Source: Bacteroidota bacterium (lineage in GTDB: Bacteria > Bacteroidota > Bacteroidia > Bacteroidales > VadinHA17). From it: a stretch of DNA of 60,218 nucleotides. Shown here piece after piece: positions 1 through 18,300 of this stretch. The translations under genes were made by a program, and so were the position numbers. The notes beneath the pieces are model-generated. The model ran no database searches, was not told the origin of the DNA, and saw only the letters and a program-made list of their open reading frames with translations. The stretch's first letter is position 1, and the number at the start of each line of letters is the position of its first letter. The stretch is taken from assembly GCA_011049175.1 (NCBI GenBank), contig DSCJ01000109.1:1-60218 (forward strand), in the 5' to 3' direction.

Positions 1-25
1 ATTTAATTTCCGTATTTTTACTCAT
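1..25 (-). CDS. 5' end of a divergently transcribed gene (partial)
   Basis: An ATG on the minus strand (complement of 23-25) opens a frame reading MSKNTEIK before the window ends. It follows an A-rich leader and a TAGATTTG box at 50-57, which has the spacing expected of a Bacteroidota -7 element. Eight codons are too few to name a product. The call rests on the start codon, the leader and the divergent orientation to the mevalonate operon; it could still be chance. Confidence 0.35.
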
Positions 26-49
26 GTTGTTGTTTGTTTCCGCAAAAAA

Positions 50-57
50 CAAATCTA
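50..57 (-). promoter_or_regulatory. Candidate -7 element for the leftward gene
   Basis: Read on the minus strand this is TAGATTTG, an exact match to the Bacteroidota -7 consensus TAnnTTTG, about 25 bases before the ATG at 25. No clear TTG is seen 19-21 bases further upstream, so the -33 element is missing or weak. Confidence 0.35.
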
Positions 58-155
58 CAACATGAAGGGGAAACCTCTGGGGAGTACCCTTCTCTTTATT
101 TTTTTAGTCGGACACTAATGTAAAAAAATGAAAAAAAAAAATACCCCAAAAGCCG

Positions 156-1466
156 TTGAAAGGTTTTTCTTCGCTCTCGCGGGAAGAAAAGCTCGATCAG
201 GTGGCCCGGTTATTCGATGATCCACAGGAATTCGTGAAAGAGCTAAACTCATTCAGGCATCCGAAGTACCGGGAATTGCTGGATGGATTCAGTGAAAATA
301 CCCTTACCCATTATCCCCTGCCGTACGGGGTGGTACCGAACGTAATAGTAAACGGTACATTATACATGGTGCCGGTGGTGACAGAAGAAAGCTCCGTGGT
401 GGCGGCCGCAGCGAAAAGTGCAGGGTTCTGGGCCGGGCGCGGCGGTTTCCATGCCCGGGTGATCTCCACCACCAAGGTGGGGCAGGTTCATTTCACCTGG
501 AAAGGGGATTTCCGTAAGCTGCAGGATCATTTCCCCGAACTGAAGGAAAAACTTTTGAAAAAAACTGCTCCGGTAACACAGAATATGGTGAAAAGGGGAG
601 GAGGGATCCGCAGCATCAGGCTGGTTGAAACGGCCCGTTCCATGGAGCATTATTACCAGCTGATGGCCGAATTTGAAACGGTCGATTCCATGGGGGCCAA
701 TTTTATCAATACCTGCATGGAAGAAATGGCCTCGGCCCTGGTGGAATACATGGGCGGTTCGGGTCATTTCCGTGGGGAGGAAAAGAACGTGCATGTGATC
801 ATGGCTATCCTGTCGAACTATACTCCCGATTGCCTGGTGGAATGCCGGGTGGAAACCGGAATCGGGGATCTGGGTGAGCAGGAGGGAGGACTGTCGCCTG
901 AAGACTTTGCCCGTAAGTTCGAACAGGCGGTGATGATTTCCCGGATGGATCCATACCGGGCTGCCACACACAACAAAGGCATTTTTAACGGCATCGACGC
1001 GGTGGCCCTGGCTACCGGCAACGATTTCCGGGCGATTGAGGCATGCGGGCATGCCTGGGCCGCCCGTTCAGGGAATTATTCGGGGCTTACCGATATCGAT
1101 CTCAGCAATCATATGTTCCGGTACAGTCTCACCCTGCCGCTGGCTCTGGGTACCGTAGGGGGTCTTACTTCCCTGCATCCCCTGGCAAAGCGCTCCCTCG
1201 GGATGCTGGGCAACCCGCGTGCAGAGGACCTGATGATGATTGCCGCCTCTGTGGGCCTGGCAAACAACTTCGGAGCCATCCGTTCACTGATCACCCGGGG
1301 CATTCAGGCAGGTCATATGAAAATGCACCTGTCGAATATACTGAACAGGCTGGAGGCAACTCCCACCGAAAAAGAAAAGGCAAAGGCCTATTTCAGCAAA
1401 AGGAAGGTAAGTTACCGTGCTGTGGAAACATTCCTGCTATCTTTGCGAAAACAACATCATTCATGA
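156..1466 (+). CDS. Hydroxymethylglutaryl-CoA reductase
   Basis: Reduces HMG-CoA to mevalonate, the committed step of the mevalonate route. At 436 residues it is close in length to the short class II (Pseudomonas mevalonii type) enzymes. Visible family features are PYGVVPN followed by VNGTLYMVPV, the catalytic glutamate in VTEESSVVAAA (near 77-78), the catalytic lysine in THNKGIFNG, the aspartate in ALATGNDFRA and the late histidine in QAGHMKMHLSN. It overlaps the next kinase gene by ATGA, so translation is probably coupled. The only in-frame start is TTG at 156. A better ATG at 128 is out of frame by one base across an 11-A run; with one A fewer the protein would begin MKKKIPQKPLKGFSS, so the true start may be 128 with a sequence error or slippage in the run. 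Confidence 0.93.
   Translation: MKGFSSLSREEKLDQVARLFDDPQEFVKELNSFRHPKYRELLDGFSENTLTHYPLPYGVVPNVIVNGTLYMVPVVTEESSVVAAAAKSAGFWAGRGGFHARVISTTKVGQVHFTWKGDFRKLQDHFPELKEKLLKKTAPVTQNMVKRGGGIRSIRLVETARSMEHYYQLMAEFETVDSMGANFINTCMEEMASALVEYMGGSGHFRGEEKNVHVIMAILSNYTPDCLVECRVETGIGDLGEQEGGLSPEDFARKFEQAVMISRMDPYRAATHNKGIFNGIDAVALATGNDFRAIEACGHAWAARSGNYSGLTDIDLSNHMFRYSLTLPLALGTVGGLTSLHPLAKRSLGMLGNPRAEDLMMIAASVGLANNFGAIRSLITRGIQAGHMKMHLSNILNRLEATPTEKEKAKAYFSKRKVSYRAVETFLLSLRKQHHS
1438..1445 (+). promoter_or_regulatory. Possible internal promoter before the GHMP kinase
   Basis: TATCTTTG followed by C, an exact TAnnTTTG match inside the 3' end of the reductase gene and 17 bases before the kinase ATG. The same octamer precedes nusB at 27782. 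No TTG is seen at the -33 position, and it may simply be coding sequence. Confidence 0.2.
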
Positions 1467-6688: not shown

Positions 6689-7648
6689 TCAGGAGCCGGT
6701 TTCGAATGGATGACCCCGGTCGAAATCGGGCCGGTAGTAACCGGTGCTTTCCAGGTCCTGTACCCAGCCTTTTCCGAAACCCATGGAATGGAATGCATCA
6801 ACCACCCGGGCATATTCTTCCCGGTAGAGGGTCCGTCCGGGAGCGGGCCGGCCGGTGGGGAAACCCGGCGGATAATATTGCGACATAAGGGAAATGGCCA
6901 CCCGGGGGGAGAGGTGGGAGGCAATGTATTCGAGCACCCGGATGCTTTCGTCGGCGTGGCCGGGAAGCACCAGGTGCCGGATGATCATGCCCGATACGGC
7001 CTGGCCCGCCTCGTCGGTTTGAAGGGTGGATCCTTTCTGTCGGTACATCTCTTTCACCACGGCACAGGCAACTTCCGGATAATCCCGTGCGCCTGAATAC
7101 TTTGCCGCCAGCTCCGGGGTAACATATTTCAGGTCGGGCAGGTAAACAGAGATCTTTCCTTCCAGGCGGGCAATACTCTCGGGATGCTCGTAGGCATTGG
7201 TGTTCCAAACGGTAACGGGTTTTTTGCCCGTTTTTTCCAGGGCACGAAGGATGGCCATAACCTGTGGATACACATGCGAGGGGGATACAAATCCAACCCC
7301 GTGGATACCCCGGTCGAGAATCCGGAGAATGGATTCCATTACCCCTTCCATGGAAAGAGCCGGGTGCTCGGCCGACGCCCGGGGATTGCTGATCTGGTAA
7401 TTCTGACAAAAACCACACTGCAGGTTGCATCCTGTGAAGAAAATATTGCAGATACCGTGTTTCCCGCTGATGGCGGGTTCCTCACCCCGGTGTATGCAGA
7501 TGGAGGATATGTGGATGCCGGCATCGGTTCCACAGATTCCTTCCCCTCCGGCCAAACGGTCAGCTCCGCATTCTCTGGGGCACAGGCGGCATGCGCGCAG
7601 CCACCCGATCTCCTCTGCTGTGTACCATCCGGGAATGGGTTCAGGCAT
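6689..7648 (-). CDS. PflX-like radical SAM protein
   Basis: A 319-residue radical SAM protein of the type once called pyruvate-formate-lyase-activating-like (PflX). The [4Fe-4S]/SAM motif is C74-x3-C78-x2-C81 in FTGCNLQCGFCQNYQ. An N-terminal cysteine set, C20, C23, C27 and C39 in RACRLCPRECGADRLAGG and GICG, may bind a second metal centre or zinc. The substrate of this family is not known to me. The start lies 6 bases after the stop of the exchanger gene, so the two are co-transcribed. The same N-terminal cysteine pattern occurs in the radical SAM protein at 14501. Confidence 0.8.
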   Translation of the reverse strand: MPEPIPGWYTAEEIGWLRACRLCPRECGADRLAGGEGICGTDAGIHISSICIHRGEEPAISGKHGICNIFFTGCNLQCGFCQNYQISNPRASAEHPALSMEGVMESILRILDRGIHGVGFVSPSHVYPQVMAILRALEKTGKKPVTVWNTNAYEHPESIARLEGKISVYLPDLKYVTPELAAKYSGARDYPEVACAVVKEMYRQKGSTLQTDEAGQAVSGMIIRHLVLPGHADESIRVLEYIASHLSPRVAISLMSQYYPPGFPTGRPAPGRTLYREEYARVVDAFHSMGFGKGWVQDLESTGYYRPDFDRGHPFETGS

Positions 7649-10695: not shown

Positions 10696-12210
10696 ATGAA
10701 ATATACTCCATGGATTATTCCGGTGGCATGGCTTCTGTTGTGTACGGAACCTCCGGTTTCGGCACAGAGAGACCGTCAACCTGCCGTGGCCGGCAGCTTT
10801 TATCCGGCCCAGGAAGCCTTGTTGCGTGCTTCCCTGGAGGAATATTCCCGGATTGCCGGAAAGCCGGTATCCGAACACCCGGTCAGGGCTCTGATCGTTC
10901 CGCATGCGGGGTATGTTTATTCCGGACCGGTGGCTGCGGCAGCCTTCAGCCGGCTGGATCCTGAAACGGAATACCGCAATGTGTTTCTGATCGGTGTCAG
11001 CCATACGGCCATGTACCATGGAGCGGCCGTTTATGCTTCCGGTCATTTTATAACCCCCCTGGGGAAAGTACCGGTGAATGCATCCCTTGCCGCAGATCTG
11101 GTGAAGAATTGCCGCGAAATGCACGATCATGCTTCTCCCCATATGCAGGAACATTCCCTGGAAGTGGAGCTTCCTTTTCTGCAATACCGGCTCAAAAAGG
11201 ATTTTCAGATTGTCCCCATACTGATCGGTACCCGTGACCCGGGGAACCTCCGCGCCTTAGCCCGGTGCCTGGAGCCTTATTTTATCCCGGGGAACCTGTT
11301 TGTGATCAGTACCGATTTTTCCCATTATCCTTCTGCGGGAGATGCGGAAAAGGTTGACAGGAGTACTGCCGAGGCCGTGGCATCCAATGATCCGGAGCAA
11401 TTCTTGCAGGTTGTAAAAAAGAATGAGGCATCGGGAATCAAAGGGCTGGTAACAGCCATGTGTGGGTGGCCCGCCGTGTACTGTCTGCTGAACCTCACAC
11501 AGGGTGATCCCGGCCTGGAGTATTCCCTGGTAAGGTATGCCAATTCAGGCCAGGTGCCTCACGGCGATAAAAGCCGTGCCGTGGGATACTGGGCCATAGA
11601 ACTTATTGAGAAAGAAAAAGAACATAATACCGGAGGAAATACTTTTATGAATCTCACCGAGCTTGATAAAAAACACCTTCTGGAAATTGCCCGGCGAACG
11701 CTGGAAAGATTCCTTGACGACGAGACCCTGGTGGCATTCAATCCCGACAAGCTTTCTCCCAACCTGAAGCAGGAGGGAGGGGCCTTTGTCACCCTTACGA
11801 AAAACGGCGCTCTCAGGGGTTGTATCGGCCGTTTTGCCGATACCGACCCCCTGTACCTCACCGTGCAGAAAATGGCCGTTGCCGCCGCCATACAGGATTC
11901 ACGGTTCAAACCCGTTACCCGCGAAGAACTGGATGAACTGGAGATCGAAATTTCCGTGCTCAGTCCGCTGCAGCCCATCCAGTCGAAAGATGAAATTGTT
12001 TTGGGTAAGCACGGGATCTATATGCGGAAAGGGTTTTCCACCGGCACGTTCCTGCCTCAGGTAGGTGAAAAATACGGCTGGACCGTGGAAGAATTCCTGG
12101 GACGTTGTGCCCGCGACAAGGCCGGCATAGGATACTACGGATGGAAAGATGCCGAACTCTTTGTATTTGAGGCTACCGTATTCAGCGAGCACGAGCTTTC
12201 CGGCCGGTAA
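10696..12210 (+). CDS. AmmeMemoRadiSam protein B-A fusion (MEMO1 + AMMECR1), exported
   Basis: A 504-residue two-domain protein. Residues 1-24 look like a signal peptide (hydrophobic WIIPVAWLLL, cleavage near VSA/Q). The MEMO1 domain covers about 28-305, with histidines in VPHAGYVYSG (H70) and GVSHTAMYHG (H103, H108), DFSHYPSAGD, and C256 in MCGWPAVY; these resemble the metal-site residues of MEMO1. The AMMECR1 domain covers about 318-500 and has the hallmark LRGCIG (373-378). In the AmmeMemoRadiSam set these are proteins B and A, usually accompanied by the radical SAM protein found here at 14501. Their biochemical role is not settled. The junction has an in-frame ATG at 11647 preceded by GGAGG at 11632, so a free AMMECR1 domain might also be made. 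Confidence 0.88.
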   Translation: MKYTPWIIPVAWLLLCTEPPVSAQRDRQPAVAGSFYPAQEALLRASLEEYSRIAGKPVSEHPVRALIVPHAGYVYSGPVAAAAFSRLDPETEYRNVFLIGVSHTAMYHGAAVYASGHFITPLGKVPVNASLAADLVKNCREMHDHASPHMQEHSLEVELPFLQYRLKKDFQIVPILIGTRDPGNLRALARCLEPYFIPGNLFVISTDFSHYPSAGDAEKVDRSTAEAVASNDPEQFLQVVKKNEASGIKGLVTAMCGWPAVYCLLNLTQGDPGLEYSLVRYANSGQVPHGDKSRAVGYWAIELIEKEKEHNTGGNTFMNLTELDKKHLLEIARRTLERFLDDETLVAFNPDKLSPNLKQEGGAFVTLTKNGALRGCIGRFADTDPLYLTVQKMAVAAAIQDSRFKPVTREELDELEIEISVLSPLQPIQSKDEIVLGKHGIYMRKGFSTGTFLPQVGEKYGWTVEEFLGRCARDKAGIGYYGWKDAELFVFEATVFSEHELSGR

Positions 12211-12276
12211 ATCCCGCACCAAATTCGGCATGGTGTTTGCTTTCTTCCGGGGATAACCGGAAACATCATTTGGTTT

Positions 12277-14424
12277 ATGGGAGGGAACAGGAAAGCAACT
12301 TCCGGATTGCCCGAATACTGGCTGGTTGTGGCTATGGGATTTACTTCCATGTCGGCCCAGCTGATTCTGCTGCGCGATTTTCTGAAACTGTTCCAGGGGA
12401 ATGAGCTGGTCATCGGACTATTGTTGGCCTCCTGGATGTTTATCACGGCTCTCGGGGCCTGGACGGGCTATCGTTTCAGGCGGTTGCACCGCCACCTTAC
12501 CCTGCTCTTTCTGGTCCTGGCCTGGCTGCCTCCCCTGACGCATTTTCTGCTGGTATGGCTGCGGTATACTTTTTTCACTCCGGGGGTTATGACAGGCCTG
12601 CTTCCCGTATTGGTCTTTTCCTGGGCCGTGTTGCTTCCCTTCTGTTTTGTTTCGGGAATGTCCTTTCCCATTTTTTCCGGATCACTATCCGAACGTTCCG
12701 GATCAAATCATACCAACAGGATTTATTATCTGGAAGCATCGGGTTCACTGGCAGGGGGAGCCCTGTTTTCCTTTATCCTGGTATTTTTTTTCCCGCACTG
12801 GGCTGCCCTGTTCCTGATCCTGTTGCTCAATATGGGTGTACTGGCTATGGTGGCATGGAAAACGGGAAGGCGAAAGATCCTTGGATGGTCGGGTGTCAGC
12901 ATAGCCCTTACAGCATTCATTTTGTTTTTTACCGATCCCGGGAAACTGGAAAACCGGTGGCTTTTTCCGGGGCAGCAGGTGGTGATGCAGCAGGAATCTC
13001 CTTACGGCAGCCTGACTCTTACCCGCATGCACGAGCAGTGGCAGTTGTATGAGAACAATGAGTTGCTTTATTCAACCGGTAATCCTGCCCTGCAGGAAGA
13101 AAAAGTGCATTATCCCCTGAGCCAGCATCCCCGGCCCGATACCCTGCTGCTGGTATTCGGAAGCTGGAACGGCATGCTGCAGGAAATTTCCAAATACGAA
13201 CCTGCCGCCGTGGATGCCGTGGAAATCAATCCCGAGCTGGTGGAAATGCTGCAATCGGAATTTCCGGAAATTTCGGCCCACTGGCTGGCAATGCATTTCC
13301 AGGATCCTGTGATCTTTGTGAACAGGGCGGAAAACAAACGGTACGATGCCATTCTGGTGAATGCTCCTCCTCCCGACAATCTGCAAACCAACCGGTACTT
13401 TACCCGGGAATTTTTCGTGAGTTGCCGGGAATTGCTCAGTTCCGGAGGTGTTTTCTCCATATCCCTGCCGGCGTCGGGCAATTACCTGGGCGAGTCGGCC
13501 AGAAAGAACCATTCCATTCTGTATTTTACCCTGAAGGAAGTGTTTCCCCATGTGACCATTGTGCCGGGTGAAGAAGATTATTTCATTGCCTCTGACATGG
13601 AATTTGACTGGAACATTACCGGACTGATCACGGAAAAAGGGCTGGAGAACGACTACCTGAACCCCTGGTACATCAGCAATGATCTGATCCACCGGCGTGC
13701 CGAACGGATAATGGAAGACCTGACTCCGGATATCCGGCCGAATACCGGATTGTACCCTGTGGCTACTTACAGTCACTGGAAGCAGTGGCTGAGCCATTTC
13801 GACTGGTTGCACAGCCTGGCGCCCCTCATTTTCATGTTGTTTATCCTGCTCACCCTGGTCAGGATGAACCCCGTGCAGGTGGCCCTGTTTGCCGGAGGAT
13901 TTGCCTCGGCAGCCCTGGAAGTGATTCTTCTGCTGGCATTCCAGGTATTGTTCGGATATCTGTACCTTGCTACCGGTATGCTGATCACGGTGTTTATGCT
14001 GGGCCTGTATCTGGGATCGCGCATGGCAGAGCAAAGGAAGGGCAGCAAGGAAAAACCTTTTACCCGCCCGCTGGTTGGGCTGGCTACCATCCTTGCAGCC
14101 ATGCCGGTTCTGATTTTCCTGCTAAAGGATTCTTCTCTCAACGCCATTCTGGCTCCGGTCTTTATCGGATCAGTCACTCTGCTGACCGCTTTTCTGGTAG
14201 GGACCCTTTTTGCCCGGGGTACCCGCCTGTTGCAGACAGATATTTTCCGGTCGTCGGGCCGTTTGTACTCAGCCGACCTGATGGGTTCGGCGCTGGGCGC
14301 CATGCTGGTGAGCGCCGTGCTGATTCCTCTGACAGGAATCATTGTGACCTGCTTTCTGACAGCGGGTGTGGCCCTGGCCGGTATGGCCTGGTACCGTTAT
14401 TCCGTCACGGGAATTTCCGTGTGA
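12277..14424 (+). CDS. Multi-spanning membrane protein with spermidine-synthase-like domain
   Basis: A 715-residue protein in three parts: about six hydrophobic segments (residues 15-220), a soluble spermidine-synthase-like methyltransferase-fold domain (about 225-450), then another six or seven segments to the end. The soluble part keeps ESPYGSLTL and DAVEINPELVEM, but the glycine loop is FGSWNGML in place of the usual GGGDG. The catalytic aspartate loop (DSTDP in known enzymes) is VNAPPPD, with Asn 362 at the key place. Fused membrane/polyamine-synthase proteins are a known but poorly understood family. Here it sits between the two AmmeMemoRadiSam genes, 66 and 76 bases away, which suggests a shared membrane-linked process. 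Aminopropyl transfer itself looks doubtful. Confidence 0.8.
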   Translation: MGGNRKATSGLPEYWLVVAMGFTSMSAQLILLRDFLKLFQGNELVIGLLLASWMFITALGAWTGYRFRRLHRHLTLLFLVLAWLPPLTHFLLVWLRYTFFTPGVMTGLLPVLVFSWAVLLPFCFVSGMSFPIFSGSLSERSGSNHTNRIYYLEASGSLAGGALFSFILVFFFPHWAALFLILLLNMGVLAMVAWKTGRRKILGWSGVSIALTAFILFFTDPGKLENRWLFPGQQVVMQQESPYGSLTLTRMHEQWQLYENNELLYSTGNPALQEEKVHYPLSQHPRPDTLLLVFGSWNGMLQEISKYEPAAVDAVEINPELVEMLQSEFPEISAHWLAMHFQDPVIFVNRAENKRYDAILVNAPPPDNLQTNRYFTREFFVSCRELLSSGGVFSISLPASGNYLGESARKNHSILYFTLKEVFPHVTIVPGEEDYFIASDMEFDWNITGLITEKGLENDYLNPWYISNDLIHRRAERIMEDLTPDIRPNTGLYPVATYSHWKQWLSHFDWLHSLAPLIFMLFILLTLVRMNPVQVALFAGGFASAALEVILLLAFQVLFGYLYLATGMLITVFMLGLYLGSRMAEQRKGSKEKPFTRPLVGLATILAAMPVLIFLLKDSSLNAILAPVFIGSVTLLTAFLVGTLFARGTRLLQTDIFRSSGRLYSADLMGSALGAMLVSAVLIPLTGIIVTCFLTAGVALAGMAWYRYSVTGISV

Positions 14425-14500
14425 GTAAGCTGAAGACTCTGTCTGCCCTCATTCCGTTTATTATTTGGCAAAGCATAACGGAAATGTTTAATTTTACAGA

Positions 14501-15652
14501 ATGAGCCCGGAAGAAGAAAAACTGTCCAAACGCGAGTTTATCAGAAAAAGCCTGCTGGGTGCGGGAGGAATGGTTTGCTGCCCCTTTCTGCTCCGGGGGA
14601 ATTCCGGGCAGAATGTTCATTTCCGGGATGGGAAACCCTGGAAATGGAGCCGGGAAGCCATGCACTATATTTCCACTCCCCGGGGGATCAAATGCCGTAC
14701 CTGCCCCAATGAATGTGATATCAAAGAGGGTGAGGCGGGCGATTGCCGTACCAAAGAAGTGGTGGGTGGCAAATTGTACACCATTGCCTACGGCAATCCC
14801 TGTTCGGTGAATATAGACCCCATGGAGAAGAAGCCTCTCCATCATTTTCATCCCGGCACCCGGGTGTTATCCATTGCCACCGCAGGGTGCAACCTGGCCT
14901 GCCTGAATTGTCAGAACTGGGAGATATCCCAGCGGAGTCCCAGGGAGACGCGGAATTACGACCTGATGCCACCGAAAGTGGTGGAACTGGCCATTCAGGA
15001 AAACTGCCCTTCCATTGCATATACCTATTCCGATCCGGTGGCGTTTTATGAATACACACTGGATACTTCCATACTGGCCCGGCAGGCAGGCCTGGGCAAT
15101 GTGATCGTTTCGGCGGGATTCATCAATCCCCGGCCGTTGAAAGACCTGTGCCGTGTGATCGACGCAGCCAACATCGACCTGAAGAGTTTCAGCGATGATA
15201 TCTATGCCATGCTGAATGCCGGAAAATTGCAACCGGTGCTGGATACCCTGCTTACCCTGAAGGAAGAAGGGGTATGGCTGGAAATTACCAACCTGCTGGT
15301 TCCTACCTGGACCGATGATATGAAAATGATCGGGGAAATGTGCCGCTGGCTGGTAAAGAACGGTTTTGCCGATACTCCCCTCCATTTCAGCCGGTTTCAG
15401 CCCATGTACAAGCTGAACCGGCTGGCCCCCACTCCGGTGAGCACGCTGGATCAGGCCAGAAAAACAGCGCTGGATGAAGGAATGCATTTTGTATATGTGG
15501 GGAATGTGCCGGGGCATCCGGCCCAGGATACCCTTTGTCCGAACTGCGGAAAAACCCTGGTGGTGAGAAAAGGATACCAGGTATCCATGCCATTGCTGAA
15601 AAACGGCAAATGTGCTTCCTGCGGGAAGTCCATCCCCGGAGTGTGGGATTAA
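14501..15652 (+). CDS. AmmeMemoRadiSam system radical SAM enzyme with Tat-like leader
   Basis: A 383-residue radical SAM protein. The cluster motif is C130-x3-C134-x2-C137 in TAGCNLACLNCQNWE. Ahead of it is a cysteine set C65, C68, C72, C82 (CRTCPNECD and DCRT), and the C-terminus ends in a zinc-ribbon-like pair, CPNC and CASC. The N-terminus SKREFIRKSLLGAGG followed by a short hydrophobic stretch resembles a twin-arginine leader with Lys-Arg in place of Arg-Arg, so export of a folded, cluster-loaded enzyme is possible. It belongs with the MEMO1-AMMECR1 fusion at 10696. The substrate is unknown. Confidence 0.87.
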   Translation: MSPEEEKLSKREFIRKSLLGAGGMVCCPFLLRGNSGQNVHFRDGKPWKWSREAMHYISTPRGIKCRTCPNECDIKEGEAGDCRTKEVVGGKLYTIAYGNPCSVNIDPMEKKPLHHFHPGTRVLSIATAGCNLACLNCQNWEISQRSPRETRNYDLMPPKVVELAIQENCPSIAYTYSDPVAFYEYTLDTSILARQAGLGNVIVSAGFINPRPLKDLCRVIDAANIDLKSFSDDIYAMLNAGKLQPVLDTLLTLKEEGVWLEITNLLVPTWTDDMKMIGEMCRWLVKNGFADTPLHFSRFQPMYKLNRLAPTPVSTLDQARKTALDEGMHFVYVGNVPGHPAQDTLCPNCGKTLVVRKGYQVSMPLLKNGKCASCGKSIPGVWD

Positions 15653-15700
15653 GGTTTTCCCTGTTCACCGATTTTTTTCCCGCGTTTACCGAAAAACTGT

Positions 15701-15730
15701 TTGAACCGGTGCTGTGCGTTCCTATTTTTG
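15701..15730 (+). promoter_or_regulatory. Promoter of the LiaF-like/two-component operon
   Basis: TTG at 15701-15703, 19 bases, then TATTTTTG at 15723-15730, an exact match to TAnnTTTG with consensus spacing. It lies between the radical SAM stop and the ATG at 15772, giving a leader of about 35 bases. Confidence 0.65.
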
Positions 15731-15771
15731 GGGTGTTTGTCACGCGTTATTATTCACTAAAAAACAAAAAG

Positions 15772-16479
15772 ATGGAACGCAGTCGTTTTCACCGCAGTGC
15801 CGTTGTCGGACTGATCTTTATTTTCGCCGGTTTGTTTCTGATAGCCGGCAATATGAATCTTATCCACTATCCTCTCAGGCATATTCTGTTTTCGTGGCCC
15901 ATGCTGCTGGTAGCACTGGGAGTGATTTTTCTTGCCAGCCGGGAAGGATCGCTTACCGGTTGGATATTGCTGATCATTGGTGGGTTTTTCCTGGTTCCCC
16001 GGATATTTCCGGGTGTGCATTTTGAGTTTCACCTTTTCTTCTGGCCGGTGCTGCTCATCGGGCTGGGATTGGTGATGATCTTTCGTTTTGCCGGTCACAA
16101 CGGGAAGATGATCCATCGCACCGAGGTCAATGACGAAGATTACCTGGATGATGTGGCTATTTTCGGCGGAGGAAAGAAAATGTTCACCTCACAGAATTTT
16201 CAGGGGGGTAAGATCACAGCCATTTTCGGAGGATCGGAGATCGATCTGAGGCAGGCAAAAATGGCCAAGGGAAAGGTTTATGTTGATTATTTTGCCATGT
16301 TTGGCGGGACCAAGCTTTTTGTGCCCGGCGACTGGGATGTGAAAGTGGAGGTGAGCTCTATTTTCGGTGGATTTTCCGATAAGCGGGCTGCCGATCCCCG
16401 CATCGTGAGAGATCCTTCCAAGCAGCTTATTATAAAAGGAGTGGCTATCTTTGGGGGAGGTGACCTGGTAGATTTCTGA
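15772..16479 (+). CDS. LiaF-like membrane protein (TM domain plus LiaF-type C-terminal domain)
   Basis: A 235-residue protein starting MERSRFHRSAV. Residues 8-110 hold four hydrophobic segments of the LiaF transmembrane / DUF5668 type. The rest is a soluble beta-rich domain with recurring IFGG/MFGG turns (AIFGGGKK, AIFGGSEI, AMFGGTKL, SIFGGFSD, AIFGGGDL), as in LiaF-family C-termini. LiaF in Firmicutes restrains a sensor kinase of the cell-envelope stress response. Here the next two genes, 4 bases away, encode a kinase and regulator, so the same type of role is likely. The longer frame upstream to 15535 overlaps the previous gene and is rejected because the promoter lies inside it. Confidence 0.82.
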   Translation: MERSRFHRSAVVGLIFIFAGLFLIAGNMNLIHYPLRHILFSWPMLLVALGVIFLASREGSLTGWILLIIGGFFLVPRIFPGVHFEFHLFFWPVLLIGLGLVMIFRFAGHNGKMIHRTEVNDEDYLDDVAIFGGGKKMFTSQNFQGGKITAIFGGSEIDLRQAKMAKGKVYVDYFAMFGGTKLFVPGDWDVKVEVSSIFGGFSDKRAADPRIVRDPSKQLIIKGVAIFGGGDLVDF

Positions 16480-16483
16480 GCCT

Positions 16484-17545
16484 ATGGACAACAGCCGGCA
16501 TCCTTTTCTGGTTAGCAGAAAGAATATTCTTTTGTACGCATCCACGTGGATCCTCCTGGCGGGGGTTCACGTGATGCTGCTGTTGTGGCGGGGGGACTTT
16601 CCCCTGTATGTTACCATCAATGAGGCACTGATCTCCACTTTTTTTCTGGCCCTGCTGGGACTGGCCCTGTGGTATCCTGTCAGGTTTATGGATACCGGTA
16701 GAAACCATCTGCTTTTTATTCTGGCAGGGTATGGCATGTCAGGTGCGGTGATGCTCCTTCTCTGGCTCACACTTACGCATTTCTTCCTGCGAAATTTTTT
16801 CCCGGGCATACAGGGTTATCATGTGTATTTGAATGAATCGGTGGGCTGGAAGGTGGTTGGCGGGGCACTGGTATATCTCATTATTCTTCTGGTTTATTAC
16901 CTTACAATGACATGGCACCGCCTGCGGGAAAAAGACAGGCAGGAAGCCAGGCTGGAAACCCTGATAAAGGAATCGGAGCTGAAAATGCTGCGTTCTCAGA
17001 TCAATCCTCATTTCTTATTCAACAGCCTGAACAGTATCAGCGCCCTTACACTGACCGATCCTGGAAAAGCAAGGGATATGGTGGTCAGGCTGTCGGAGTT
17101 TTTCAGGTATTCCCTCGACCATAAGATGGAAGACGAGTCTACCCTGGAGGAGGAACTGCATCACATTGAAAATTACCTTGCCATGGAACAGGTAAGGTTT
17201 GGGGAACGTTTGGTGTTTACCAGGGAGATTCCCGGAAGGTGCATAAAAATGAAATTACCCAACCTGATCCTGCAGCCTCTGTTTGAAAATGCTGTCAAGC
17301 ACGGGGTGTACCAGAGTACGGAACAGGTGGAGATCAGATTAACGGCCCGGTGTGATGAAAACCGGCTCCGGCTTATGCTCAGCAACCATTATGACCCTGA
17401 TGTTCCTGCAGCCGGACGCCGGGGTATCGGGCTGAGCAATATCGCCCAGCGACTGGAACTGAAATACGGTCAGGAAGGGTTGATGGGCATTGAAAAAGAT
17501 GAACGGATATTTACAGTCACATTGCTGATACCCCAATCTTCATGA
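16484..17545 (+). CDS. LytS-type sensor histidine kinase
   Basis: A 353-residue inner-membrane kinase of the His_kinase (LytS/YehU) family. Four hydrophobic segments occupy about 12-145 and a short coiled stretch follows. The phospho-acceptor block is SQINPHFLFNSLNSISAL. The ATPase part is reduced, with the N-box FENAVKHG and the G-box GRRGIGLSNIAQRLELKYG. No periplasmic sensing domain is visible, so the signal is probably sensed in the membrane, perhaps through the LiaF-like partner encoded immediately upstream. It overlaps the regulator gene by ATGA. Confidence 0.9.
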   Translation: MDNSRHPFLVSRKNILLYASTWILLAGVHVMLLLWRGDFPLYVTINEALISTFFLALLGLALWYPVRFMDTGRNHLLFILAGYGMSGAVMLLLWLTLTHFFLRNFFPGIQGYHVYLNESVGWKVVGGALVYLIILLVYYLTMTWHRLREKDRQEARLETLIKESELKMLRSQINPHFLFNSLNSISALTLTDPGKARDMVVRLSEFFRYSLDHKMEDESTLEEELHHIENYLAMEQVRFGERLVFTREIPGRCIKMKLPNLILQPLFENAVKHGVYQSTEQVEIRLTARCDENRLRLMLSNHYDPDVPAAGRRGIGLSNIAQRLELKYGQEGLMGIEKDERIFTVTLLIPQSS

Positions 17546-18300
17546 AAACGGAAAGAAAACTCACAACCCTGATCATCGACGATGAAGCCCCTGCCAGGGA
17601 TATCATCAGGCATTACCTGCGCAATCATCCTTCTGTGGAAATTATTGGGGAGTATGCCGACGGTTTTACCGGATTAAAGGCCATTCAGGACCTCAGGCCC
17701 GATCTGGTGATCCTGGATATTCAAATGCCCAGGCTCACCGGACTGGAAATACTGGAGCTGCTGGATGAATGGCCGGCCGTGATTTTTGTAACAGCCTACG
17801 ACCGGTATGCTATCCGGGCTTTTGAACTGAGCGCGGTGGATTACCTGCTGAAACCTTTTTCGGAGGAACGTTTGAAGGAGGCGGTGGATAAAGCCGTGAA
17901 GCGCACCGGCGGCCGGAATGCCGGCGATGAGGTGCAGGCCTTGATGAATGCGGCCAGGGAACAGGTTAAGCATATTGAACGGTTGGTGGTGAAGGCAGGA
18001 TCGCGTATTCATATACTTTCACTCGACGATATCCGGTATTTTGAAGCGGTGGACGATTATGTGAAGATACATACCGAGAAGGAACGGTACATGAAAAAAA
18101 TGACCATGAAATACCTGGAAGATCGCCTGGACGGGAAGGAATTCATCCGCATACACCGGTCGTATATTGTGGCTGTAAAGGAAATCCGGAGCATTGAAAA
18201 GTACGGCAGGGAGAGCTATCTGGCCCTGCTGCACGGAGGAGAGAAGCTCAGCATGAGCCAGGGGGGAATGGAAAGGCTGAAGGAAGCCATGATGTTATAG
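17542..18300 (+). CDS. LytTR-family response regulator
   Basis: A 252-residue regulator. The receiver domain (1-120) has the acidic pair in LIIDDEAPARD, the phospho-acceptor aspartate in LVILDIQMPRLTG, Thr in FVTAYDRYA and Lys in LLKPFSEERL. The C-terminal LytTR DNA-binding domain (about 145-245) includes HILSLDDIRYFEAVDDYVKI and FIRIHRSYIVAVKEI. It is translationally coupled to the kinase. The target genes are not evident, but the operon's own promoter at 15701 is a natural candidate. Confidence 0.92.
   Translation: MKTERKLTTLIIDDEAPARDIIRHYLRNHPSVEIIGEYADGFTGLKAIQDLRPDLVILDIQMPRLTGLEILELLDEWPAVIFVTAYDRYAIRAFELSAVDYLLKPFSEERLKEAVDKAVKRTGGRNAGDEVQALMNAAREQVKHIERLVVKAGSRIHILSLDDIRYFEAVDDYVKIHTEKERYMKKMTMKYLEDRLDGKEFIRIHRSYIVAVKEIRSIEKYGRESYLALLHGGEKLSMSQGGMERLKEAMML

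Follow-up and report, generated by a model that had tools for sequence, protein, structure and literature searches.

The window analysed here is a stretch of 60,218 nucleotides, contig DSCJ01000109.1 of the Bacteroidota bacterium assembly GCA_011049175.1. At positions 10696-15652 of its forward strand lies a cluster of three genes, which encodes all three AmmeMemoRadiSam components, each above its NCBIfam cut-off, together with a large membrane protein. Sequence comparison supports well the view that this cluster represents an exported branch of AmmeMemoRadiSam with a new partner. A first-pass annotation had placed three open reading frames (ORFs) here, in the order given below and on one strand, and the ORF positions bear this out; the gaps between them measure 66 and 76 bases. 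A near-identical genome (L081; L numbers are our own labels for loci and genomes) has the same architecture, with a radical S-adenosylmethionine (SAM) protein 94% identical to that of the window, and the ratio of non-synonymous to synonymous substitution rates (dN/dS) of the three genes against L081 is 0.13-0.15.

10696-12210, + strand: Memo-AMMECR1 fusion (amrB-amrA type), predicted to be exported; matches to PF01875 and PF01871, with TIGR04336 and TIGR04335 above cut-off
10696-10764, + strand: putative signal peptide of the fusion, residues 1-23, MKYTPWIIPVAWLLLCTEPPVSA; from hydropathy, with the cleavage site placed by eye
12277-14424, + strand: 715-residue membrane protein, predicted fold of the major facilitator superfamily (MFS) type with an inserted spermidine-synthase-fold domain; PF01564, AlphaFold2 (AF2) and VIA-align
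12310-12930, + strand: membrane protein, N-terminal seven predicted transmembrane (TM) helices, residues 12-218; AF2, hydropathy and positive-inside counts
12931-13812, + strand: membrane protein, spermidine-synthase-fold domain, residues 219-512, predicted on the outer face; positive-inside counts and kept acids
13813-14421, + strand: membrane protein, C-terminal seven predicted TM helices, residues 513-715; AF2, hydropathy and positive-inside counts
14501-15652, + strand: AmmeMemoRadiSam radical SAM enzyme (amrS type) with a putative export leader; TIGR04337, AF2 and Foldseek
14525-14593, + strand: candidate leader of the twin-arginine translocation (Tat) type, SKREFIRKSLLGAGGMVCCPFLL, residues 9-31 of the radical SAM protein; pattern kept in relatives
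14888-14911, + strand: CxxxCxxC cluster motif, C130/C134/C137 of the radical SAM protein; invariant in 36/36 rows

Three proteins with predicted outward-facing parts

The first gene encodes a protein of 504 residues in which a Memo domain (PF01875, 191.8 bits, residues 28-299) is joined to an AMMECR1 domain (PF01871, 167.8 bits, residues 329-496); the corresponding NCBI models are also matched (TIGR04336, Memo, 239.5 bits against a cut-off of 26; TIGR04335, AMMECR1, 168.2 bits against 99). Together with an uncharged hydrophobic N-terminal stretch of 12 residues of signal-peptide type (mean hydropathy 2.07), these matches uphold the earlier description of a MEMO1-AMMECR1 fusion with a signal peptide. 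By eye, some relatives show lipoprotein-like cysteines. According to PMC11081632, human MEMO1 binds iron through H49, H81 and C244. In an alignment to the structure 7kq8 these correspond, by a manual count that allows for an offset of 3, to H70, H103 and C256 of the fusion, which are invariant in 7/7 rows.

The radical SAM protein (383 residues) scores 360.3 bits against TIGR04337 (cut-off 220). Because this match begins only at residue 63, the first 62 residues, which hold SKREFIRKSLLGAGGMVCCPFLL, are extra. Within them the motif SKREFIR, with K-R instead of R-R, is followed by an uncharged hydrophobic stretch (mean hydropathy 1.87), and thus agrees with the sequence pattern of a Tat substrate (an R-R or K-R x hydrophobic motif plus a hydrophobic stretch). 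The Tat-like leader that had been read from the sequence is therefore confirmed at this level, and a TatC gene is present in the source genome. Tat signals with lysine in place of the first arginine are described in PMC1182353 for natural (TtrB) and mutant cases, and KR can be Tat-active. The AF2 model of the enzyme reaches a predicted local distance difference test score (pLDDT) of 92.3, its best Foldseek match is pyruvate formate-lyase activating enzyme (3cb8, E 4.7e-14, TMt 0.79), and the CxxxCxxC motif is invariant in leadered and leaderless rows alike.

Between these two genes lies that of the membrane protein, which matches PF01564 with 49.8 bits at residues 273-395. Its AF2 model, built with 38 relatives, has a pLDDT of 89.6 and a predicted template modelling score (pTM) of 0.90, and in Foldseek and VIA-align comparisons the central domain matches spermidine synthases (1uir, Z 28.0), whereas the remainder matches MFS transporters (VMAT1 8tgn, G6PT1, SotB and NarK). 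VMAT1 aligns to the model with a Z of 28.4 and a root mean square deviation of 3.7 over 344 residues in the range 7..714, and the two six-helix halves of the MFS fold are recognisable in the predicted model. Among MFS sequence models, no Pfam entry matches at E 0.001, and NF037959 (MFS_SpdSyn) does so weakly (27.2 bits against a cut-off of 40). We count 14 helices, seven before and seven after the domain, with the long helices 43-99 and 656-714 each read as two. The two helices beyond the twelve of an MFS protein, one on either side of the insert, would place the insert on the outer side. The distribution of charge points the same way: across 38/38 proteins, loops on the N-terminal side carry 18.8 lysines and arginines per protein and loops on the side of the domain 1.8, the figures for the window protein being 23 and 2. 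Thus, the spermidine-synthase-fold domain is predicted, by charge in 38/38 relatives, to face outward, an orientation that goes beyond what the first-pass annotation had proposed.

Is this domain a polyamine synthase? E316 and D343, which we take to match the nucleoside-binding acids of spermidine synthase, are kept in 38/38 and 37/38 rows, as are E274 (38/38) and H278 (37/38). The catalytic acids of polyamine aminopropyltransferases are presumably those of the GGGDG and D-x-x-DP motifs. In their place the window protein has FGSWNG, a degenerate glycine loop, and NAPPP, so that none of the three catalytic-type acids is found in it; its relatives are mixed. Aminopropyltransferase NCBIfam cut-offs are not reached either (best score 102.2 bits against 472). 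The spermidine-synthase-like domain of the first-pass annotation is hence real as a fold, and the label of polyamine synthase that went with it suits the window protein less well; judging from the models, this is better named an MFS-type protein with a spermidine-synthase-fold insert.

An alternative would retain the transferase chemistry: the membrane protein might be an extracytoplasmic aminopropyl or aminocarboxypropyl transferase, or a polyamine carrier, and a polyamine-like group would be added to an envelope molecule. The clear fold and the four kept residues argue for it, and residue 365, the acid before proline in D-x-x-DP, is D or E in 32/38 rows (P in the window protein), which slightly raises its odds. 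Residue 362, the first Asp of that motif, is D in only 10/38 rows and N in 18/38, and the acid of GGGDG occurs in 3/38 rows by pattern, or in six by eye (L123, L132, L133, L134, L147, L160). Other spermidine-synthase-domain proteins of the first phylum, in contrast, keep both the glycine-loop acid and the 362 Asp in 22/22 cases, a control set that omits one fragment (L049). On account of this comparison and of the missing catalytic acids, we rank a polyamine synthase role behind one in SAM supply (see below) and consider it improbable.

Co-occurrence of leaders and membrane partner

We surveyed 296 genomes of the home phylum. TIGR04337 is matched above cut-off in 66 of them, and in 7 the membrane protein has a full-length relative that scores at least 200 bits. 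The radical SAM rows comprise 75 copies above cut-off (hand count, window included) and two contig-end pieces below it; 79 rows minus the duplicates L178 and L199 leave 77 distinct ones. In 7/77 rows the radical SAM protein has a leader of Tat type and is accompanied both by the membrane protein and by a Memo-AMMECR1 fusion, the leader motif being RR in two (L071, L072) and KR in five. Leaderless copies make up 66/77 rows, and 0/66 adjoin the membrane protein, which is also missing from the 4/77 rows with unreadable N-termini (L187, L202, L224, L226). L187 had been scored 'none' by script and is counted as unreadable since its ORF starts at a contig end; L070, one of the seven leadered rows, is a contig-end fragment and perhaps one gene with L224, and L225 and L226 resemble halves of one gene.

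The source genome itself has two Memo genes and a second TIGR04337 copy, apparently split across two contig ends (L034/L035). This second Memo and radical SAM set is leaderless and has no membrane partner in the stretch read, suggesting that export marks a sub-family. Despite the two copies of each, only one AMMECR1 domain was found in the genome, in the exported fusion; an AMMECR1 gene for the second set, if it needs one, could lie in an assembly gap.

For a wider set, genome contigs were scanned with an alignment of six leadered proteins, and the best 80 of 584 relatives were read, a ranking by similarity to the window protein that favours leadered copies and includes some loci with short flanks. 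Tat calls were made by script with our own lenient pattern rule, by-eye changes being marked. Scripted calls gave 58 Tat, 4 Sec/TM (general secretory or transmembrane type) and 18 without leader, compared with a background of 52/804 neighbour ORFs (6.5%) for the Tat rule. The membrane protein is present in the locus of 45/58 Tat, 0/4 Sec/TM and 7/18 leaderless copies, and the 58 Tat motifs divide into 28 RR, 24 KR, 5 RK and one, L149, whose motif (TRRRF) is shifted in register. Loci that combine a Tat leader with the membrane protein come from Bacteroidota, Ignavibacteria, Desulfobacterota/Deltaproteobacteria, Omnitrophota (L146), Chloroflexi (L149), Acidobacteriota (L153) and Aminicenantes (L135), according to record titles that mostly refer to metagenome-assembled genomes and of which single ones may be wrong. 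In the named strain Mangrovibacterium marinum DSM 28823, a single TIGR04337 match above cut-off was found; it is leadered and adjoins the membrane-protein gene, and the Memo ORF there is incomplete, close to the start of the contig. Eight copies scored 'none' look Tat-like by eye (L094, L099, L116, L143, L273, L274, L278, L340), and calls for L101, L124 and L158 are doubtful.

The leaders of radical SAM and Memo proteins also move together. Over 153 rows with hand-curated labels (L094, L099, L116 and L143 taken as Tat; L101 and L124 as undecided), exported radical SAM rows with a Memo gene in the locus have a Memo signal peptide in 36 cases, none in 5 and a cut sequence in 1 (among the five exceptions, L100, L102 and L158 resemble signal peptides with a charged residue, and L084 and L150 are incomplete or fragments). 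For leaderless rows the numbers are 5, 20 and 1; the Memo protein of L075, scored with a signal peptide, looks mis-started. In a quick tree of these 153 rows, with L094 and L143 preset to Tat and long-branch joins flagged, a single starred set of 89 contains every one of the 66 Tat and 4 Sec rows along with 19 that were scored as leaderless, and the remaining 64 rows are all leaderless. Export of the whole TIGR04337 family was considered and rejected, most copies in the home phylum being leaderless and leaderless copies also occurring in the second phylum and in the tree. When leader and membrane protein were compared on the tree by independent pairs, the pairs available (3 on starred branches) were too few for a verdict. 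The idea that these proteins act outside the cytoplasm, put forward in the first-pass annotation, thus holds, as far as sequences can tell, for a sub-family in which both leaders are kept and co-vary, and fails for orthologues at large (66/77 leaderless).

A second phylum was centred on the genome of L123 (Desulfobacteraceae bacterium Eth-SRB1) and comprised 118 genomes, 112 of which match TIGR04337 at E 1e-50; the membrane protein is found at the same threshold in 50/118 genomes, at 54 places. Two or more radical SAM copies are present in 44/50 genomes with the membrane protein and in 7/68 without it (hand count; Fisher p 2e-18). A script-called Tat copy occurs in 32/50 genomes with the membrane protein and in 1/40 of those read without it, an uneven comparison because more copies were read in the former and some were sought with the leadered alignment. 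As controls, 40 of the 62 genomes with TIGR04337 and without the membrane protein were sampled at one copy each: 38 copies have no leader, 1 is Tat (L299) and 1 Sec/TM (L314, where the start may be an artefact). At 19/54 places, the membrane-protein gene has a radical SAM gene within 6 kb or up to the contig end; 12 of these carry a Tat leader according to the script and another 3 by eye, and 4 are leaderless. The first-pass annotation had asked whether the membrane protein is a consistent neighbour; this it is in 7/7 leadered rows of the home phylum, whereas in the second phylum the link is strong at the level of genomes and loose at that of loci.

Might the leaders be mere anchors, or mis-called, and the chemistry be the ordinary cytosolic AmmeMemoRadiSam reaction? 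The window leader is KR rather than RR, and curated Tat models are mostly silent: PF10518 matches 4/36 family rows at E 1 or better, the window protein not among them, and TIGR01409 is not among the families displayed in the same profile listing. Moreover, the lenient rule has its background, and some leaderless relatives adjoin the same membrane protein. Against this stand the RR motifs in nearly half of the leaders called among the best 80 of 584, the Sec-type leaders of a few relatives, the Memo signal peptides that keep step with the radical SAM leader, the predicted outward orientation of the spermidine-synthase-fold domain and the paralogue without leader that the source genome also encodes. 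Taken together, they make a cytosolic reaction very unlikely in our estimation.

Four radical SAM proteins carry a CxxCH motif in a short N-terminal insert that immediately precedes their first cysteine cluster, and this bears on the same question.

L071:10068-11312, L072:9839-11080, L149:3108-4475 and L274:2822-4063: leadered radical SAM proteins with CxxCH

Since c-type haem is attached outside the cytoplasm, such a motif, if it bears c-haem, would itself show export; alternatively, it could be a metal site.

Neighbour clustering over 87 loci found no further gene widely kept with the set, the largest clusters, named by eye, being response-regulator-like in 11 loci and RND-transporter-like in 9, so that the neighbourhood gives no hint of the substrate. 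In the window, a LiaF-like protein and, after it, what by eye is a sensor kinase/response regulator pair lie directly downstream of the cluster (15535-18300, + strand), and a second, unrelated radical SAM protein with only 23.9 bits against TIGR04337 lies about 3 kb upstream (6689-7648, - strand). Two membrane-protein ORFs elsewhere are unusually long, with 1212 and 1593 residues (L142:4026-7664 and L152:2938-7719); next to each lie a radical SAM gene without leader and a Memo-AMMECR1 fusion that has a signal peptide.

Radical SAM chemistry outside the cytoplasm?

How might these proteins work together? Probably all three face the periplasm, judging from their sequences. We envision that the Memo-AMMECR1 fusion exits by a Sec or lipoprotein signal and that the radical SAM enzyme exits by Tat, folded and with its iron-sulphur cluster included, steps that the sequences support well. 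Structure prediction supports a second step, in which the 14-helix MFS-type protein would sit in the inner membrane with its spermidine-synthase-fold insert on the outer face. Conceivably, the insert then binds the adenosine part of SAM, without aminopropyl transfer, and the transporter exports SAM and hands it over to the exported radical enzyme. A 5'-deoxyadenosyl radical formed outside the cytoplasm might finally activate an envelope substrate, with the iron-bearing Memo and AMMECR1 domains taking part. The electron may derive from respiratory c-type cytochromes, because a few relatives' radical SAM proteins carry CxxCH. Within this scheme localisation is well supported by sequence, and the supply of SAM by the MFS protein is hypothetical; the chances that an extracytoplasmic AmmeMemoRadiSam system uses an MFS protein to export SAM and directs the radical at an envelope substrate seem to us evenly balanced. 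More tentative still is the picture of radical SAM chemistry conducted wholly outside the cytoplasm, by a Tat-exported enzyme, an exported iron protein and a SAM-exporting MFS protein, with electron entry through c-haem in some.

Several observations weigh against this scheme. They include the near silence of the curated Tat models and the degenerate glycine loop of the window membrane protein. In its family, the acidic residue 365 of 32/38 rows and the six rows with a glycine-loop acid indicate that transferase chemistry has not been lost throughout. The membrane protein also occurs near leaderless radical SAM genes, both in the wider set (L117, L129, L133, L142, L152) and in the second phylum (L248, L251, L253, L256). 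Most of its genes in that phylum, 35/54, lack a radical SAM neighbour within 6 kb. Such lone genes occur in 33 genomes, of which 60/77 radical SAM matches were read; a script-called Tat copy lies elsewhere in 21/33, and none was called in 12/33, partly owing to unreadable N-termini. Finally, lone membrane proteins show the same residue changes as linked ones, with the nucleoside acids mostly kept, so the family may do something wider than serve this system.

Two narrower ideas did not survive these counts. The membrane protein is not exclusive to the system (35/54 lone), the linked copies not forming one clade (14 changes), and its residue changes are not peculiar to linked copies, as lone ones have them too. 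The lone loci (L247-L295, 35 of the 54) reveal a wide family of MFS-like proteins with a spermidine-synthase fold and without radical SAM neighbour, and neighbour clustering among these 35 found no widely shared gene.

The same exported system could operate without SAM supply by the MFS protein, which might move the substrate or product, or retrieve 5'-deoxyadenosine or 5'-methylthioadenosine (MTA), while SAM arrives otherwise. An MFS fold combined with a nucleoside-binding fold specifies neither direction nor cargo, and the family is found without radical SAM neighbours. Its genome-level co-occurrence with leadered radical SAM proteins, on the other hand, suggests a need tied to that enzyme, though it does not tell the cargo. 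We regard this alternative as unlikely, yet the most serious competitor of SAM export.

As far as we know, radical SAM enzymes are regarded as residents of the cytoplasm, because their chemistry requires SAM, electrons of low potential and shelter from oxygen. The existence of a conserved exported version across several phyla would mean that SAM and reducing power are available outside the inner membrane; if radical SAM chemistry and SAM export both take place there, the system would represent a new compartment for this chemistry and its MFS protein a novel class of SAM transporter. We know of no biochemical function for AmmeMemoRadiSam, and the NCBI models TIGR04335, TIGR04336 and TIGR04337 are all of type hypoth_equivalog. 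Memo and AMMECR1 are unsolved families with human members, for which location, partner and cofactor become directly testable in this setting. Among open-licence full texts in PubMed Central (PMC), which leave subscription papers and preprints largely outside, we found no paper on 'periplasmic/exported/secreted radical SAM' and none on a fused MFS/spermidine synthase; in partly shown listings from this source, no title or abstract start concerned an exported radical SAM enzyme, SAM export or this cluster. Open-licence papers that name AmmeMemoRadiSam do so in lists of gene names, and PMC10924467 names a radical SAM gene among several neighbouring genes.

Relation to known systems

The closest solved fold to the radical SAM model, that of pyruvate formate-lyase activating enzyme, belongs to a separate family: the model for that enzyme scores 43.9 bits against a cut-off of 231.75, and the window enzyme differs by its putative export leader and by additional pairs of cysteines at either end. 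Polyamine aminopropyltransferases (PRK03612; the fused MFS/spermidine synthase NF037959) share with the membrane protein the spermidine synthase fold and the putative nucleoside-binding acids. The window protein stays below both cut-offs and differs from membrane-fused aminopropyltransferases in its replaced catalytic-type acids and in its predicted architecture, where 14 helices make up two transporter halves that flank the domain.

Human MEMO1 acts inside human cells, whereas the window Memo domain carries a predicted signal peptide and is fused to AMMECR1. The likeness is that residues 27-293 of the fusion align to 7kq8 and that the three iron ligands given for MEMO1 in PMC11081632 are kept.

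AmmeMemoRadiSam itself (TIGR04335 amrA, TIGR04336 amrB, TIGR04337 amrS) is the nearest relative as a system, all components being present with an intact radical SAM motif. The window cluster departs from it in that Memo and AMMECR1 are fused behind a predicted signal peptide, the radical SAM enzyme has a candidate leader, and a partner with MFS-type and spermidine-synthase-type folds is added. The conventional set of the same genome has no leaders and, in the stretch read, no such partner.

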